Source of the DNA: Propionibacteriaceae bacterium
Lineage (GTDB): Bacteria; Actinomycetota; Actinomycetes; Propionibacteriales; Propionibacteriaceae
NCBI GenBank assembly: GCA_009782915.1
Contig: WRIC01000008.1
Span: 1 to 64,000, forward strand
Reading direction: 5' to 3'
Length of the DNA stretch: 64,000 nucleotides
Part shown: in pieces, positions 16,850-64,000 of the stretch
Position numbering within the stretch: the stretch's first letter is position 1
How the letters are laid out: every line of letters starts with the position of its first letter
Notes under the pieces: generated by a model
What the model was told of the DNA's origin: nothing
The model's input: the letters and a program-made list of their open reading frames with translations, nothing else
Database searches by the model: none
Translations under genes and position numbers: made by a program

Positions 16850-16988
16850 CGTCATTCTGCGCGAAGTCGCAGAATCCAGACTCCACAGTCGGACAACTGT
16901 GGGGTCTGTGGGGAACGATCGAGTTTGACAGACTCATCATTGTGTTGCGTGTGATATCTGGACCCTGCGACTTCGCGCAGGGTGACGG
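16850..16988. repeat. Palindromic intergenic element with both arms
   Basis: A left arm (ATTCTGCG/CGCAGAAT around CGAAGT, then CCAGA) starts near 16853. A right arm (TCTGG, then CCCTGCG/CGCAGGG around ACTTCG, then GTGACGG) ends near 16988. The spacer begins with an inner palindrome CCACAGT/ACTGTGG. The gap 16682-17138 holds no supported gene. Confidence 0.8.
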
Positions 16989-30494: not shown

Positions 30495-30632
30495 AACCCT
30501 GTCGTAGTGCGCACCCAACCCTGTCGTGGTGCGCACCCAAGCACCGTCATTCTGCGCGTAGTCGCAGAAACCAGACTCAACAGTCGAACAACTGTTGTTG
30601 TCTGGACCCTGCGACTCCGCGCAGGGAGACGG
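30495..30632. repeat. 22-bp direct repeats and a palindromic element
   Basis: Two 22-bp copies beginning AACCCTGTCGT (30495 and 30517) precede a compact palindromic element at 30546-30632: left arm ATTCTGCG/CGCAGAAA, inner palindrome ACAGTC/ACTGT, right arm CCCTGCG/CGCAGGG. Here the array is on the left-arm side. No gene is seen in 30426-30638. Confidence 0.8.
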
Positions 30633-39850: not shown

Positions 39851-39999
39851 GTCACCCTGCGCGAAGTCGCAGGGTCCAGACTATCCAGTTGCCTGACTGT
39901 GGATTCTGGATTCTGCGAGTCGCTTCGCTCCGCAGAATGACCGGGAAGAATGTGCTCCGCAGAATGACGGGGAAGAATGTGCTCCGCAGAATGACGGGG
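39851..39999. repeat. Palindromic element with 27-bp tandem tail
   Basis: Left arm 39851-39880, inner palindrome CAGTTG/ACTG, right arm ending 39942 with a lengthened loop. A 27-bp unit starting at the arm end (GCAGAATGAC) is repeated at 39932, 39959 and partly 39986. The gap 39610-40125 contains no supported gene apart from the prfB promoter. Confidence 0.85.
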
Positions 40000-42373: not shown

Positions 42374-43240
42374 GTCATTCCGCGCGAAGTCGCGGAATCC
42401 AGATGTGATAGTTCCCACGACTGGGGTTGTTGGTGGTTGGTCAGACTGTTCGCCTGAGCGCATATTGTGGATGATGTGGATTCTGGGCCCTGCGACTTCG
42501 CGCAGGGTGACGGTGGTGGAGTTGCGCAGGGTGACGGCTGTTGAGGTGTCATTGGAGTTGAGCGCAACGATCCAGAATTGCCACCATCAGCAACTGCGGC
42601 ATCTTTCGAACAACCGCGACCGTTCAGCGGTGGAAATGCAGGATCGTTGCGTCGCTGGTCAAACCGCGACTCACTCCCAACCCCACCAAGTCATTCCGCG
42701 CGAAGTCGCGGAGTCCAGATGTGATAGTTCCCACGACTGGGGTTGTTGGTGGTTGGTCAGACTGTTCGCCTGAGCGCATATTGTGGATGATGCGGATTCT
42801 GGACCCTGCGACTTCGCGCAGGGTGACGGGGGTGGAGTTGCGCAGGGTGACGGGGGTGGAGTTGCGCAGGGTGACGGTGGAGAGACGCAGGGGGACGGCT
42901 GTTGAGGTGTCATTGGAGTTGAGCGCAACGATCCAGAATTGCCACCATCAGCAACTGCGGCATCTTTCGAACAACCGCGACCGCTCAGCGGTGGAAATGC
43001 AGGATCGTTGCGTCGCTGGTCAAACCGCGACTCACTCCCAACCCCACCAAGTCATTCCGCGCGAAGTCACGGAATCCAGATGTGATAGTTCCCACGAATG
43101 GGATTATGTGTGGTTGGTGAGACTATTCGGCTACTCCGCGTAGTGGATGATGTGGATTCTGGGCCCTGCGACTTCGCGCAGGGTGACGGTGGTGGAGTTG
43201 CGCAGCGGCGGTGGTGGAGTTGCGCAGCGACGGTGGTGCG
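42374..43240. repeat. Three long palindromic elements with shared tail blocks
   Basis: Elements at 42374-42513, 42690-42829 and 43051-43189 each have a left arm of the ATTCCGCG/CGCGGAAT type, a spacer of about 78 bp and a right arm CCCTGCG/CGCAGGG. After the first two come near-identical blocks (42538-42689 and 42898-43050) with an inverted pair GCAACGATCC/GGATCGTTGC. Between them are 24-bp tandem copies (CAGGGTGACGG at 42819, 42843, 42867). The whole gap 42296-43264 holds no supported gene; frames through it only translate the repeats. Confidence 0.9.
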
Positions 43241-59178: not shown

Positions 59179-59317
59179 GTCATTCCGTGCGTAGTCACGG
59201 AATCCAGACGTGATGGTTTCCACGAATGGGATTGTGTGTGGTTGGTGAGACTATTCGGTTACTCCCCATGGTGGTTGGTGTGGATTCTGGACCCTGCGAC
59301 TTCGCGCAGGGTGACGA
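59179..59317. repeat. Long palindromic element
   Basis: Left arm ATTCCGTG/CACGGAAT (59179-59208), spacer about 77 bp, right arm CCCTGCG/CGCAGGG ending near 59317. Upstream (about 59080-59125) is a fragment of the tail block also seen at 42538-42689. A 24-bp tandem tail (CAGGGTGACG at 59307 and 59331) follows. No other gene lies in 59009-59459. Confidence 0.85.
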
Positions 59318-59447
59318 TGGTGAAGGTGCACAGGGTGACGATGGTGAAGGTTTTGGTACTGTCATTCCGTGCGTAGTCACGGAATCCAGACATGCGGTTA
59401 TCCACAATAATAGAGTTTGTCCATGGTGATCAGCGTGATGTCTTCAG

Positions 59448-59453
59448 TAGGCT
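59448..59453 (+). promoter_or_regulatory. -10 box for leaderless GIY-YIG gene
   Basis: TAGGCT, exactly 6 nt before the ATG at 59460. Confidence 0.45.
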
Positions 59454-59459
59454 CACAAT

Positions 59460-59747
59460 ATGGCAAAAATGGCATACACGTACATGATGGCAAATAAACG
59501 GAATGGGACTCTATATGTGGGTGTCACCTCTAATCTGGAGCGCCGGGTTTTTCAGCATAAAGACAAAACATATCCTGGATTCACAGCAAAGTACGGCATT
59601 GACCTCCTTGTATGGTTTGAAGGTGGTGAAAGCATTGAGGAGGCGATTGCCCTTGAAAAGAAGATCAAAAATTGGAAACGGCAACAGAAGACTGCTTTGA
59701 TCGAGAAGACCAACCCCCAGTGGAGAGACTTGAGTGAAGACTTCTGA
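59460..59747 (+). CDS. Single-domain GIY-YIG nuclease (YhbQ/URI-like)
   Basis: 95 aa. The GIY-YIG motif appears as YTYMMANKRNGTLYVGVTSN (about 6-25), followed by the arginine in LERRVFQHK and the catalytic glutamate in ALEKKIKNWKRQQKTALI. It is a stand-alone nuclease domain of the UPF0213/URI type, whose roles are mostly unknown; related domains occur in UvrC and homing endonucleases. The start at 59460 is set by the -10 box. It is the only gene inside the 59029-60330 repeat block and lies between the two inverted palindromic arms. Confidence 0.88.
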   Translation: MAKMAYTYMMANKRNGTLYVGVTSNLERRVFQHKDKTYPGFTAKYGIDLLVWFEGGESIEEAIALEKKIKNWKRQQKTALIEKTNPQWRDLSEDF

Positions 59748-59884
59748 GCGGATGCTGGTCGTTGGTTCAACGAACTCTCAATGGTGGTGGTTGTGGTTTC
59801 TGGGCCCTGTGACGTAGCCTGTTCTGCGGAGCGCGCCAGCGCGACTCGCAGTGCACAGGGTGACGGTTGTGGAGGTTTGGTACT

Positions 59885-60325
59885 GTCATTCCGTGCGTAG
59901 TCACGGAATCCAGATGTGATAGTTCCCACGACTAGGGTTGTGTGTGGTTGGTGAGATTGTTCGGTTGCTACCCATCATGGTTGATGTGGATTCTGGACCC
60001 TGCGACTTCGCACAGGGTGACGGTTGCTGAGGTGTCATTGGAGTTGGGCGCAACGATACTGTATTGCCACCATCGGCAATTGCGGCATCTTTCGAATAAC
60101 CGCGACTCATTCCCAACCTCACTAAGTCATTCCGTGCGTAGTCACGGAATCCAGATGTGATAGTTCCCACGACTGGGATTGTGTGTGGTCGGTGAGATTG
60201 TTCGGTTGCTACCCATCATGGTTGATGTGGATTCTGGACCCTGCGACTTCGCACAGGGTGACGGTGGTGGCATCGCGCAGGGTGACGGTGGTGGCATCGA
60301 GCAGGGTGACGGTGGTGGGCCCACG
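59885..60325. repeat. Two long palindromic elements and a 24-bp array
   Basis: Elements at 59885-60023 and 60126-60264, both with left arm ATTCCGTG/CACGGAAT and right arm CCCTGCG with CGCACAGGG. Between them is a shortened tail block. A 24-bp unit (CAGGGTGACGGTGGTGG) repeats at 60254, 60278 and 60302. The gap 59748-60335 holds no supported gene. Confidence 0.88.
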
Positions 60326-60330
60326 GGGAT

Positions 60331-60376
60331 GAGCCTCAACTGGTGTGCCTGCGTAACCTGCTCAGGCTCGCCACAG
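60331..60376. repeat. 46-bp direct repeat, right copy
   Basis: Second copy of the sequence at 58983-59028. Read on the minus strand it encodes the last 12 or 13 codons and stop of the Ig-repeat surface protein. Confidence 0.92.
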
Positions 60377-63300
60377 CTAAACCACCGGCAACCATCATCA
60401 CAGCAATCCACACAGTCACTGGTGAAGAGATCAACCCTCCTGTGGGAGCAACCGCTGATGGTGCTGCAGGTGGAGTCACTGTTGTGGGCGGTGGTGAGGT
60501 GGTTCCTCCCCCAGGCGGCGCAGTGGTCCCTCCGCCGCTGGGGGCTGCCTGAACCTCGAAGGTTCTCGATGCTTCACCCCACTGCTGGCTGGATAGTGTT
60601 GCTGTGTGAACACCAGGGTCCAAACTAGCTGGAATACTGAAGGCGAACGAGACTGTCCCTTGACCAGAGGCTGTTTGCGTGCCAACAACCCACGGGTTTG
60701 AGGTCACCACCAAACGTACTTCCTCCCCGGGTTCAAACCCTGATCCGTTCACCACTTGGGTTTCACCAACCACTCGCGAACTGTGGGTGATCGACACCTG
60801 AGGTTCGTATCGTGGAATTGATCGGTCAAAGAAGGTGACCTCCACACCTGATCCAGTGATCTCTTCAGAGTTGATCAGTACAGTCACAGAGTTGGGTCCT
60901 GCTTTGGTACTCGACAAGGACACCTGGCACACCCCTTGGGCATTACTCGTACATTGAGGGGCACTCAAGGTCCCAAATCCACTGACATGGAACTCCACCT
61001 CGACAGATTCCATGGCGCGACCTTGGCTATCTTTCACGGTTGCTGTGACATCCACAGTGTCACCCACCCAAGGAATAGTCGAGGACACGCTCACAGAGGA
61101 CTGGCTCACCGACACCGTCGGCACCATCTCGGCAAAGGTCAAGACAAACTCACGAGTGATAATGGTTCCACATTCGTCGGATTCAGGAACAGACACCGTA
61201 TACTCCCCAGCAGTAAGCGTCGTGAATCTCACGTGATATATCCCACTGCCCTGATCCACAGGTGCGCTCATGAGCAGTCGCGGATCCGAGACCTCAATGT
61301 CGTCGAGTTGGGGGGTGTCGTTTTCATTGGTCATCACAATGGTTCCCACCCAAGCGGAGAGTCCATCAGCAACAACAGTTTCGCTGTAAGGTGTGTTGAC
61401 GTCGCGTCCGATAGTCATCGAGTATGGTGTTTGTGGACCGAAGCAGTCACCACGGGCAGTGAACTCGATCACACGGGCAACCACAACAGGATTCCCGTCA
61501 ACATCAAGCATCATGGCACGAACAGTAGGCTTGCCAGCCACAACAGATGCCATCGTGAAGGTGTAGGTTCCATCACCCACATCGGTGATATCCGAGAAAG
61601 TCACAGCAGGTTCTGTTGATGACAGTACGATCTCATGAGCCATCCCTGCTACTCCCACTCCCATACCATCACTGACAGTCACGGTTCCCGTCCATGCCGG
61701 TCGACCATTGGGCTCGGTGTTAGCCAGTGGCTCTACCTCAAATTCCATGGTCCATGATAGCTGGACGGGAGGCATAGTGAGGAAGGTTACATACTGGGTT
61801 CTACTTGTGAATCCGCACAGATCACTACCCACCGTGACCGTGATCAAGAAATTGCCCACAATAGGTGAGGTCAGTTCGAAGGTGTACGTGCCATCACCTT
61901 GATCCACTACCGCTGTGGAGCGTACCTGAGGATCTGAGGCAGTCACCTGGATTCCTCCGCTGTTACCTGAACCATCACCTGCTGGGCTACCCAACCTGAC
62001 AGTGCCAGTCCACGATGATTCGTCGTTGGCATAGACCGGTCCACCGTGAGTGGGAGCCACCGTGAATCCTTCCAACCAGTACGCTGGATCGCACTCGGGG
62101 ATCGGCCAAAATTCCATAGTGCGACTAACCTCTGATGGTGGACCCATCCACGGATCGTTGGGTATGGACAGAGTCACAGTGAACTGCCCTGGCTCAGTTG
62201 AAGTAAATTCCACGGTATAAGTACCGTCGCCATGATCGACTATCTCGGACGGTTCTACTGCGGGGTCCGACACCGTCATCTCGACAACAGAGGCAAGACC
62301 ATAGGAAGGTGTCATCGTTGCGTCAAGGCGGAATGTTCCGACCCAGGTTTGTTTTCCATCCGCTAATGGATGGCCACTGTCTGAAGTCAGGTCGAATCCC
62401 ATAAAGTAGACATAGTTATAGTCAGCATGAGTGGCCGAGAAATACATCGTCCGATCTATGGAGTGGACGCGACGTGATTCTGCCAGAGCAACGGTGGCAA
62501 CTGCGTCGAAGTTTCCTCCCACAACAACAGAGGTCTTGGCTGTGAATCGTATGGTGTAGGTCCCGTCATTGTTGTCCACGACATCGGAGATATTCACTTT
62601 CTCTGTGTCCACACTCACCTCGAAGGCATCGCCAAAACCAGAAGCCACTGCACCAGGTTCCGGGTTGCCCTCGAATCCTAGAATCACTGTTCCCATATAT
62701 TCGTCAACATAAGCGAAGGTGGGATGTTCACTGGTCACCACAGGGTTGACAGTGAAATCAACCAACACGACCTCAGGTTCCACTGGTGGTGTCACAACCT
62801 CGTCGAAGGTCATGGCCCGTTGAAGAGTCTTCCCATTGACAGTGGTGCGCAGCTCGAAGGTTCCCGGTGTGTCTGATGTGAGATGAACAGTGTAGGTTCC
62901 GTCATCATTATCGGTCAGAGATGACACTGTGACACTTGGATCTGAGGCAGTGATCTCCATCACATCGCCGAATCCCGTAGCAGGGGTACGCAACCGAGCA
63001 GTATCCACTAGGGTGATGGTGGCTGTGTAGTCGTCTAAATCATTGGCAGTCACACTCGACGAATCGCTACGAATGTCCACATTAGCCAAGATGAGTACGG
63101 GGGCTGGTGGTGCAGGGCGATCAACGAACCGTACCTGTCGGGTCATGGTTTGCACCTCAATGCCGTTGTCTACAGCAACAGTGATCGTGAAAGTTCCTGC
63201 CTTGGTTGAGTAGACATTGAACATCTTTATATCGTTTAACTCCGAGATGGTCACCGCCGGATCAGAGGCTGTGATGGTGATGGAATCGTTGTAACCCCGG

Positions 63301-64000
63301 AATCCACCACCAAGGAAGTCCCTGATAGTCACTGATCCTCCCCACCCAACGGAACTATTGGTATAAATCGGTTCTCCCCCACTGGGTGAGATATAAACAT
63401 CCTCTAACCAGAATTCTGGCTCAGGTGGGACAGGATAGAAGGTGGTGGTATTCGCACCGAAGGTTCCGCTTCCACCAATGATGGTGACATCTACCCAGGT
63501 GCTGGCGGGTTCGGTTGCGGTGAGAATGAAAGTGTAGGTTCCATCCCCCTGGTCAACGGGAGCGGTGTAGTGGACAGGGCTATCTGCATAGGGAATATCC
63601 ACCACAATCTGATCAGCAAAACCAGTTGCTGGGTTGGAGGGGTCGCTCAGATCAAGAATCGTCACTGTGGCCACACACTGATCTTGTCCATTGGCTAAGG
63701 GTTTTTCTTTCTCACAAGCAACAGTCGTCCCACCAAAGGCTATCAGCGGGTCAGGGGCTGGATAGAAAATAACTGTTGTATTCCACGTGCTTTCACCCAC
63801 GATGATGGAGATCGTATACCAACCTTCTTCGGTTGCCGTGACCTTGGTCGAATAGGTGCCATCTCCATGATCAACGAGGGTGGAGGCCTGAACTTTGTCG
63901 TTATCGTATCCCAGCTGGATAAGATCTGACTTTCCTGGGACCTGTATCGTACGGTCTTGGGTATCAACCAAGGTAATGGTCAGGATCTCACCGCTCACCC
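60336..64000 (-). CDS. Large Ig-like repeat surface protein, C-terminal part
   Basis: At least 1221 codons in the window; the N-terminus lies beyond the edge. The visible part is a string of about ten Ig-like beta domains of about 100-120 aa, many ending in (D)GDGTYTxxL/F followed by TSTEPGxFxVTV-like strands, in the manner of invasin/intimin and bacterial Ig-like domains. The last domain is of a different type (GSGFEPGEEVRLVVTSNPW). A Pro/Gly/Thr-rich spacer follows, then VAPTGG, a hydrophobic segment and a basic tail SRLRRHTS. This is a sortase-type anchor in which VAPTG resembles the LAxTG motif of class E sortases. A wall-anchored adhesin or stalk is likely. Confidence 0.88.
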   Translation of the reverse strand, partial: VSGEILTITLVDTQDRTIQVPGKSDLIQLGYDNDKVQASTLVDHGDGTYSTKVTATEEGWYTISIIVGESTWNTTVIFYPAPDPLIAFGGTTVACEKEKPLANGQDQCVATVTILDLSDPSNPATGFADQIVVDIPYADSPVHYTAPVDQGDGTYTFILTATEPASTWVDVTIIGGSGTFGANTTTFYPVPPEPEFWLEDVYISPSGGEPIYTNSSVGWGGSVTIRDFLGGGFRGYNDSITITASDPAVTISELNDIKMFNVYSTKAGTFTITVAVDNGIEVQTMTRQVRFVDRPAPPAPVLILANVDIRSDSSSVTANDLDDYTATITLVDTARLRTPATGFGDVMEITASDPSVTVSSLTDNDDGTYTVHLTSDTPGTFELRTTVNGKTLQRAMTFDEVVTPPVEPEVVLVDFTVNPVVTSEHPTFAYVDEYMGTVILGFEGNPEPGAVASGFGDAFEVSVDTEKVNISDVVDNNDGTYTIRFTAKTSVVVGGNFDAVATVALAESRRVHSIDRTMYFSATHADYNYVYFMGFDLTSDSGHPLADGKQTWVGTFRLDATMTPSYGLASVVEMTVSDPAVEPSEIVDHGDGTYTVEFTSTEPGQFTVTLSIPNDPWMGPPSEVSRTMEFWPIPECDPAYWLEGFTVAPTHGGPVYANDESSWTGTVRLGSPAGDGSGNSGGIQVTASDPQVRSTAVVDQGDGTYTFELTSPIVGNFLITVTVGSDLCGFTSRTQYVTFLTMPPVQLSWTMEFEVEPLANTEPNGRPAWTGTVTVSDGMGVGVAGMAHEIVLSSTEPAVTFSDITDVGDGTYTFTMASVVAGKPTVRAMMLDVDGNPVVVARVIEFTARGDCFGPQTPYSMTIGRDVNTPYSETVVADGLSAWVGTIVMTNENDTPQLDDIEVSDPRLLMSAPVDQGSGIYHVRFTTLTAGEYTVSVPESDECGTIITREFVLTFAEMVPTVSVSQSSVSVSSTIPWVGDTVDVTATVKDSQGRAMESVEVEFHVSGFGTLSAPQCTSNAQGVCQVSLSSTKAGPNSVTVLINSEEITGSGVEVTFFDRSIPRYEPQVSITHSSRVVGETQVVNGSGFEPGEEVRLVVTSNPWVVGTQTASGQGTVSFAFSIPASLDPGVHTATLSSQQWGEASRTFEVQAAPSGGGTTAPPGGGTTSPPPTTVTPPAAPSAVAPTGGLISSPVTVWIAVMMVAGGLAVASLSRLRRHTS

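Follow-up and report, generated by a model that had tools for sequence, protein, structure and literature searches.

The window, 64,000 nucleotides of one contig (G000:C8:1-64000) of a genome of 1.64 Mb, contained a gene for a GIY-YIG nuclease lying between two inverted palindromic arms (Table 1), as the initial annotation had claimed. The left arm (GTCATTCCGTGCGTAGTCACGGAATCCAGA) had an 8-bp stem, and the interior between the two arms measured 410 nt. No obvious Shine-Dalgarno sequence was present upstream of the ATG, and an Rfam search of 58.5-61.0 kb matched no family. On the minus strand at 60336-63998 there was a 1220-aa open frame, still open near the window end, which by eye resembled a series of repeated Ig-like domains with a probable C-terminal membrane anchor at the end.

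Table 1. Coordinates in the window of the gene-bearing element and of gene-less dimers of its arms.
Feature	Position	Strand	Remarks
Left palindromic arm, CGTC-type REP (GTCATTCC.../...GGAATCCAGA)	59361..59390	+	Tag here TGTC
GIY-YIG nuclease gene, single-domain, 95 aa	59460..59747	+	ATG to stop TGA
Right arm, inverted, TCTGGGCCCTG...CAGGGTGAC	59799..59864	-	Enlarged loop
Second hairpin, nested within the loop of the right arm	59823..59851	.	
Gene-less head-to-head dimer	16851..16986	.	78-nt spacer
Compact gene-less dimer	30546..30630	.	27-nt spacer
Compact gene-less dimer	39851..39941	.	26-nt spacer
Gene-less head-to-head dimer	42374..42511	.	80-nt spacer
Gene-less head-to-head dimer	42690..42827	.	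80-nt spacer
Gene-less head-to-head dimer	43051..43187	.	79-nt spacer
Gene-less head-to-head dimer	59179..59315	.	79-nt spacer; tag CGTC at 59179
Gene-less head-to-head dimer	59885..60021	.	79-nt spacer
Gene-less head-to-head dimer	60126..60262	.	79-nt spacer

PF01541 was the sole Pfam match of the protein (E = 3.4e-17, 63 bits), and the catalytic-type residues Y8, Y19, R29, H33 and E66 were invariant in an alignment of 29 homologues. As judged from its sequence, the protein carries both the domain and the catalytic Tyr/Tyr/Arg/Glu set that define the GIY-YIG superfamily. Its AlphaFold model was confident (pLDDT 94), and the best fold matches were UPF0213 proteins, Slx1 and the nuclease domain of UvrC; this fold acts on branched or structured DNA. 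A paralogue of 71% identity was encoded about 10 kb further on (C8 69911-70195, minus strand), with arms on both sides and an interior of 461 nt, so that the copy in Table 1, previously described as the only one to hold a gene, is unique within the window and one of two genome-wide. That dN was well below dS, both between the two paralogous genes on the contig (dN 0.19, dS 2.6) and in an interspecies pair (dN 0.08, dS 0.55), indicates purifying selection on the gene. A cobalamin-riboswitch-like sequence was seen, by eye only, just outside the arms of the paralogue (L003; G000:C8 about 69.4-69.7 kb).

Matches to the arm pattern numbered 367 genome-wide (190 + 177), against 0 for the backwards control. 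A survey of 80 kb of contig C8 plus 20 sampled stretches yielded 135 arms, with adjacent arms oriented 45 times HH, 19 times TT and 20 times HT. The window and the next 16 kb held 11 head-to-head dimers. Dimers in the survey were usually heterodimers, one arm being of the GTCATTCy type and the other of the GTCACCCTG type, and the left and right arms of the gene element were of the same types as those of the ordinary dimers. Pairing of every long palindromic element, as initially described, was confirmed for these dimers and did not extend to the single arms that occurred in the same 80 kb. The spacers between the arms, previously summarised as short, fell into two classes, of about 26 nt and of 74-84 nt. 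Terminal inverted repeats around a gene were found together with apparent non-autonomous derivatives, the combination by which insertion sequences and MITEs are recognised. After the last dimer, at 60262-60325, there were three tandem degenerate half-arms (CAGGGTGACGGTGGTGGCATCG), the outer end of the right arm having been expanded locally.

With 11 dimers in 80 kb, the gene might simply have happened to fall in repeat-rich DNA, and homologues elsewhere bear on this alternative. The sample consisted of 80 homologues drawn from GTDB genomes, together with further ones found in relatives and on plasmids, and 96 genes were scored for the best inverted match of their 250-bp upstream flank to their 250-bp downstream flank. 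At a threshold of 35 or more, inverted arms surrounded 69 of the 96 homologues and none of the 169 ORFs neighbouring them in these loci (Fisher P = 1e-41), and 4 of 1613 shifted positions reached the threshold; the arms accordingly belong to the gene element and are no chance association. Several of the 27 homologues below the threshold still had an arm on at least one side. The hosts included Proteobacteria, Chloroflexota, Planctomycetota, Nitrospirota, Acidobacteriota and one cyanobacterium, and element length was tight throughout (median 422 bp). Arms picked by left/right similarity alone folded into hairpins (median z -2.6, against 0.1 in the control), 32 of 48 falling below -2 compared with 2 of 60 control sequences. 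The more distant YhbQ of E. coli (28% identical) had no arms (inverted-repeat score 16).

Genomes with few repeats speak to whether abundance accounts for this. In G074 (3.0 Mb) the arm class searched for was present four times, as one pair around each of two different GIY-YIG genes. Two GIY-YIG genes accounted for five of the seven arms in G067, and in G059 the figure was two of four. Since the arms of G074 and G067 were nearly confined to GIY-YIG genes, repeat abundance cannot explain the framing. Coincidence, hardly credible, was rejected on these low-copy genomes and on the enrichment of arms around homologues, and the agreement between arm class and protein phylogeny stands against it as well.

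Arm class tracks enzyme phylogeny across phyla. On a weakly resolved tree of 100 proteins and 95 columns, with arm classes assigned partly by hand, arm class changed 42 times, against a mean of 66 and a minimum of 60 in 200 shuffles that ignored host relatedness. Classes other than those of the window genome included ATTGCGAG and GTCATACTGG; enzymes with ATTGCGAG arms formed a clade from alpha- and gammaproteobacteria and Planctomycetota, and the actinobacterial L012 and cyanobacterial L118 enzymes, both with GTCATyCTGAG arms, grouped together.

Other repeats were seen beside some homologues. A homologue of 56% identity in the same genus as the window genome (L005, G012) was flanked by GTGACATTGGGGACGGTTCC...TGTCAC repeats and not by CGTC arms. 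More distant homologues (L006-L016), from actinobacteria belonging to the order or family of the window genome, lay among another abundant palindrome, GGTCTCGATACG...CTCGACCA / GGTTTCGA...CTCAACCACC, which suggests a second repeat superfamily with GIY-YIG enzymes of its own. On a Planktothrix agardhii plasmid (L118, 2998-3282) the GIY-YIG gene lay among GTCATTCTGAG repeats, with an MmeI-like restriction enzyme on one side and DISARM drmA on the other.

Sites shared between related genomes were compared for presence of gene and arms. At rplT-pheS in Novosphingobium, three species had arms and gene, four had neither and one had an arm-less remnant of the gene; several of these species had the site without any arm, and therefore the arms arrive with the gene. 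Between fnrL and a regulator in Sphingobium, the arm-gene-arm unit was present on seven plasmids and replaced on two (L121, L122) by a single fused hairpin, CCGTCACCCCGGGTCAAGCCCGGGGTGACGG or a variant, tagged at both ends. This hairpin fits a deletion running from the 8-bp ACCCCGGG copy in one arm to that in the other; alternatively it may be an older target. Neither a target-site duplication nor an exact insertion boundary could be read at the Sphingobium fnrL-regulator and Novosphingobium rplT-pheS sites, where the flanks were too diverged.

Some of the gene-less dimers are, on sequence evidence, internal deletions of gene-bearing elements. In S. meliloti (L112) a dimer directly beside an intact unit consisted of the left and right arms with a few bases and the final third of the gene left between them, and in S. 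medicae WSM419 (L162) the left arm ran into a fusion of the gene's first and last codons; no second full-length copy of the S. meliloti derivative was found when its spread was looked for. In the window genome, the dimer at C8 70500-70650 matched the interior of the gene element at 27 of 46 positions on the left and 26 of 28 on the right, and the last 28 nt of the spacer at 59179..59315 were identical to the two gene-bearing elements at 21 and 23 positions. The other 79-nt spacers matched the gene element well at the right end only, and the 26-nt spacers matched it little, for which reason a deletion origin can be regarded as demonstrated for few dimers and as plausible for the 79-nt class.

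These comparisons bear on a second alternative, in which the gene is a free-standing homing endonuclease that enters pre-existing dimers by cutting and repair copying, the dimers being targets and not derivatives. GIY-YIG enzymes do include homing endonucleases, and the shared arm types of gene elements and ordinary dimers, the two paralogues in one contig and the Sphingobium strains with one fused hairpin where others carry arms and gene would all agree with it. Against this, the empty Novosphingobium sites offer no arm as a target, the dimers that carry gene ends point the opposite way, and in low-copy genomes most arms already surround genes, which leaves few targets. Homing into older dimers is accordingly regarded as improbable.

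Repeats without the gene were found among congeners of the window genome, which had 121 (G003), 69 (G006) and 22 (G005) arms; no single-domain GIY-YIG gene was present in these three genomes, in which the only GIY-YIG proteins were UvrC-sized or otherwise long. Repeats can therefore persist free of the gene. One of the outcomes that the initial annotation had named in advance as contrary evidence has thereby occurred in part, and its proposed comparison of copy number with gene presence gave, within the genus, no support for dependence of the repeats on the gene. The repeats of these congeners are read here as relic populations after gene loss, and they weaken the case that maintenance of the repeat requires the gene.

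The same genomes count in favour of a third alternative, in which the enzyme is a host factor of genome dynamics that modulates recombination by cutting its cognate repeats where DNA is single-stranded, as in incoming transforming DNA, and does not mobilise itself; the arms would stay around the gene as recognition sites while spreading by some other route. The model for such a factor is Ssn of N. meningitidis, a member of a widespread GIY-YIG family that is reported (Chenal et al., Nature Communications, 2025) to cut single-stranded DNA site-specifically at a repeat of hundreds of copies in Neisseria and to modulate natural transformation. The gonococcal homologue L117, presumably Ssn itself, was 46% identical over 94% to the protein in the window and was adjoined by CGTC-1/dRS3 arms. 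Against a host factor without mobility stand the facts that gene and arms lie at different sites from one species to the next within a genus and are absent jointly, that deletion derivatives keep the gene ends, and that the same compact arm-pair frame recurs in many phyla. Its probability is judged low, if well above negligible.

The evidence as a whole leans towards a fourth reading, considered fairly probable: that the unit at 59361-59864, about 0.5 kb long, is a compact and autonomous element of REP type whose nuclease nicks its own arms and from which the gene-less dimers derive. In this element, a single-domain GIY-YIG gene of the Ssn kind would be enclosed by a left arm and an inverted right arm. 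The enzyme would recognise its own arms as single-stranded folded hairpins, in the lagging-strand template or in incoming transforming DNA, and nick there; the unit, or the gap left by it, would then be copied, moved or lost through host replication and repair, and the gene-less head-to-head dimers would be non-autonomous derivatives retaining the arms. GIY-YIG enzymes hydrolyse DNA, and to our knowledge none joins it. The proposal of one autonomous element with many derivatives, already made in the initial annotation, is partly supported, by the framing of 69 of 96 homologues against 0 of 169 neighbours, by the agreement of arm class with the tree and by the interior-deleted derivatives; cutting of the arms by the nuclease, its action on single strands and spread driven by the cutting are what we infer from this pattern.

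A wider proposal, held with rather more doubt than belief, is that the dedicated enzyme which the CGTC-REP superfamily has seemed to lack is, throughout the superfamily, a single-domain GIY-YIG nuclease, each enzyme lineage crossing phyla within its own arm pair as a minimal autonomous element that spawns gene-less dimers, and that this constitutes a RAYT-independent REP-type mobile system. CGTC repeats, including dRS3 of Neisseria, fill many bacterial genomes, and the 2013 survey named no enzyme for them; the question now lends itself to a direct test that takes no more than a 95-aa protein and an oligonucleotide of 30 nt. Should the repeats be mobilised by the enzyme, there would be a second route to REP-type elements, with a hydrolytic nuclease in place of a transposase. 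The matching of arm classes with enzyme clades also yields a ready supply of candidates for orthogonal sequence-specific nucleases.

Among known systems, free-standing GIY-YIG homing endonucleases and UPF0213/YhbQ share the catalytic fold of the enzyme, but the gene described here is intergenic, with no intron or intein seen. The RAYT/REP (REPIN) system resembles it in having one repeat-flanked enzyme gene and many gene-less inverted repeat pairs in the genome; RAYTs, however, are HUH tyrosine transposases that go with GTAG-tagged REPs, whereas a GIY-YIG nuclease and GTC/CGTC tags were found here. With Ssn there is in common a single-domain GIY-YIG enzyme and a genome-wide palindromic partner repeat (here 367 copies, with arms on both sides of the gene); the differences are the actinobacterial host, the arm sequences of its own and the position of the gene inside a unit framed by arms, of which deletion derivatives also occur. 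Membership of the Ssn family is the most likely assignment for the enzyme, which was filed as probably Ssn-like on account of the identity with the gonococcal homologue and the CGTC-1 arms nearby. A literature search found no paper linking GIY-YIG enzymes to REP repeats, the 2025 Ssn paper being outside its reach; given that work, the pairing of nuclease and repeat may already be known.

The arms themselves are of a described kind, which, together with the reported Ssn family tied to such repeats, leaves unsupported the initial statement that no REP-type system run by a single-domain GIY-YIG enzyme was known. The CGTC-tagged REP superfamily, of which the dRS3 repeats of Neisseria are members, is defined by a GTC tag, a stem beginning with A-T, a CCA tail and mainly HH dimers, comprises four described families with loops of 4-5 nt from five phyla without Actinobacteria, and is "apparently" without a dedicated transposase (Di Nocera et al. 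2013; PMC3733652). The present repeats agree with it in the GTC end tag, the 8-bp A-T-first stem, the CCA tail and the mainly HH, often heterodimeric, arrangement, and the tag (CGTC, or TGTC/CCTC) is present as TGTC at 59361 and CGTC at 59179. They differ in their loops, of about 6 nt or longer in this genome though 4-5 nt at other loci, in the actinobacterial host, and in the association with a GIY-YIG gene, no enzyme having been found in the 2013 survey. The repeats are therefore classed as CGTC-REP-like, their loops being longer, and the element in its autonomous and non-autonomous forms, of putative mobility, as a variant new among REP-type systems.
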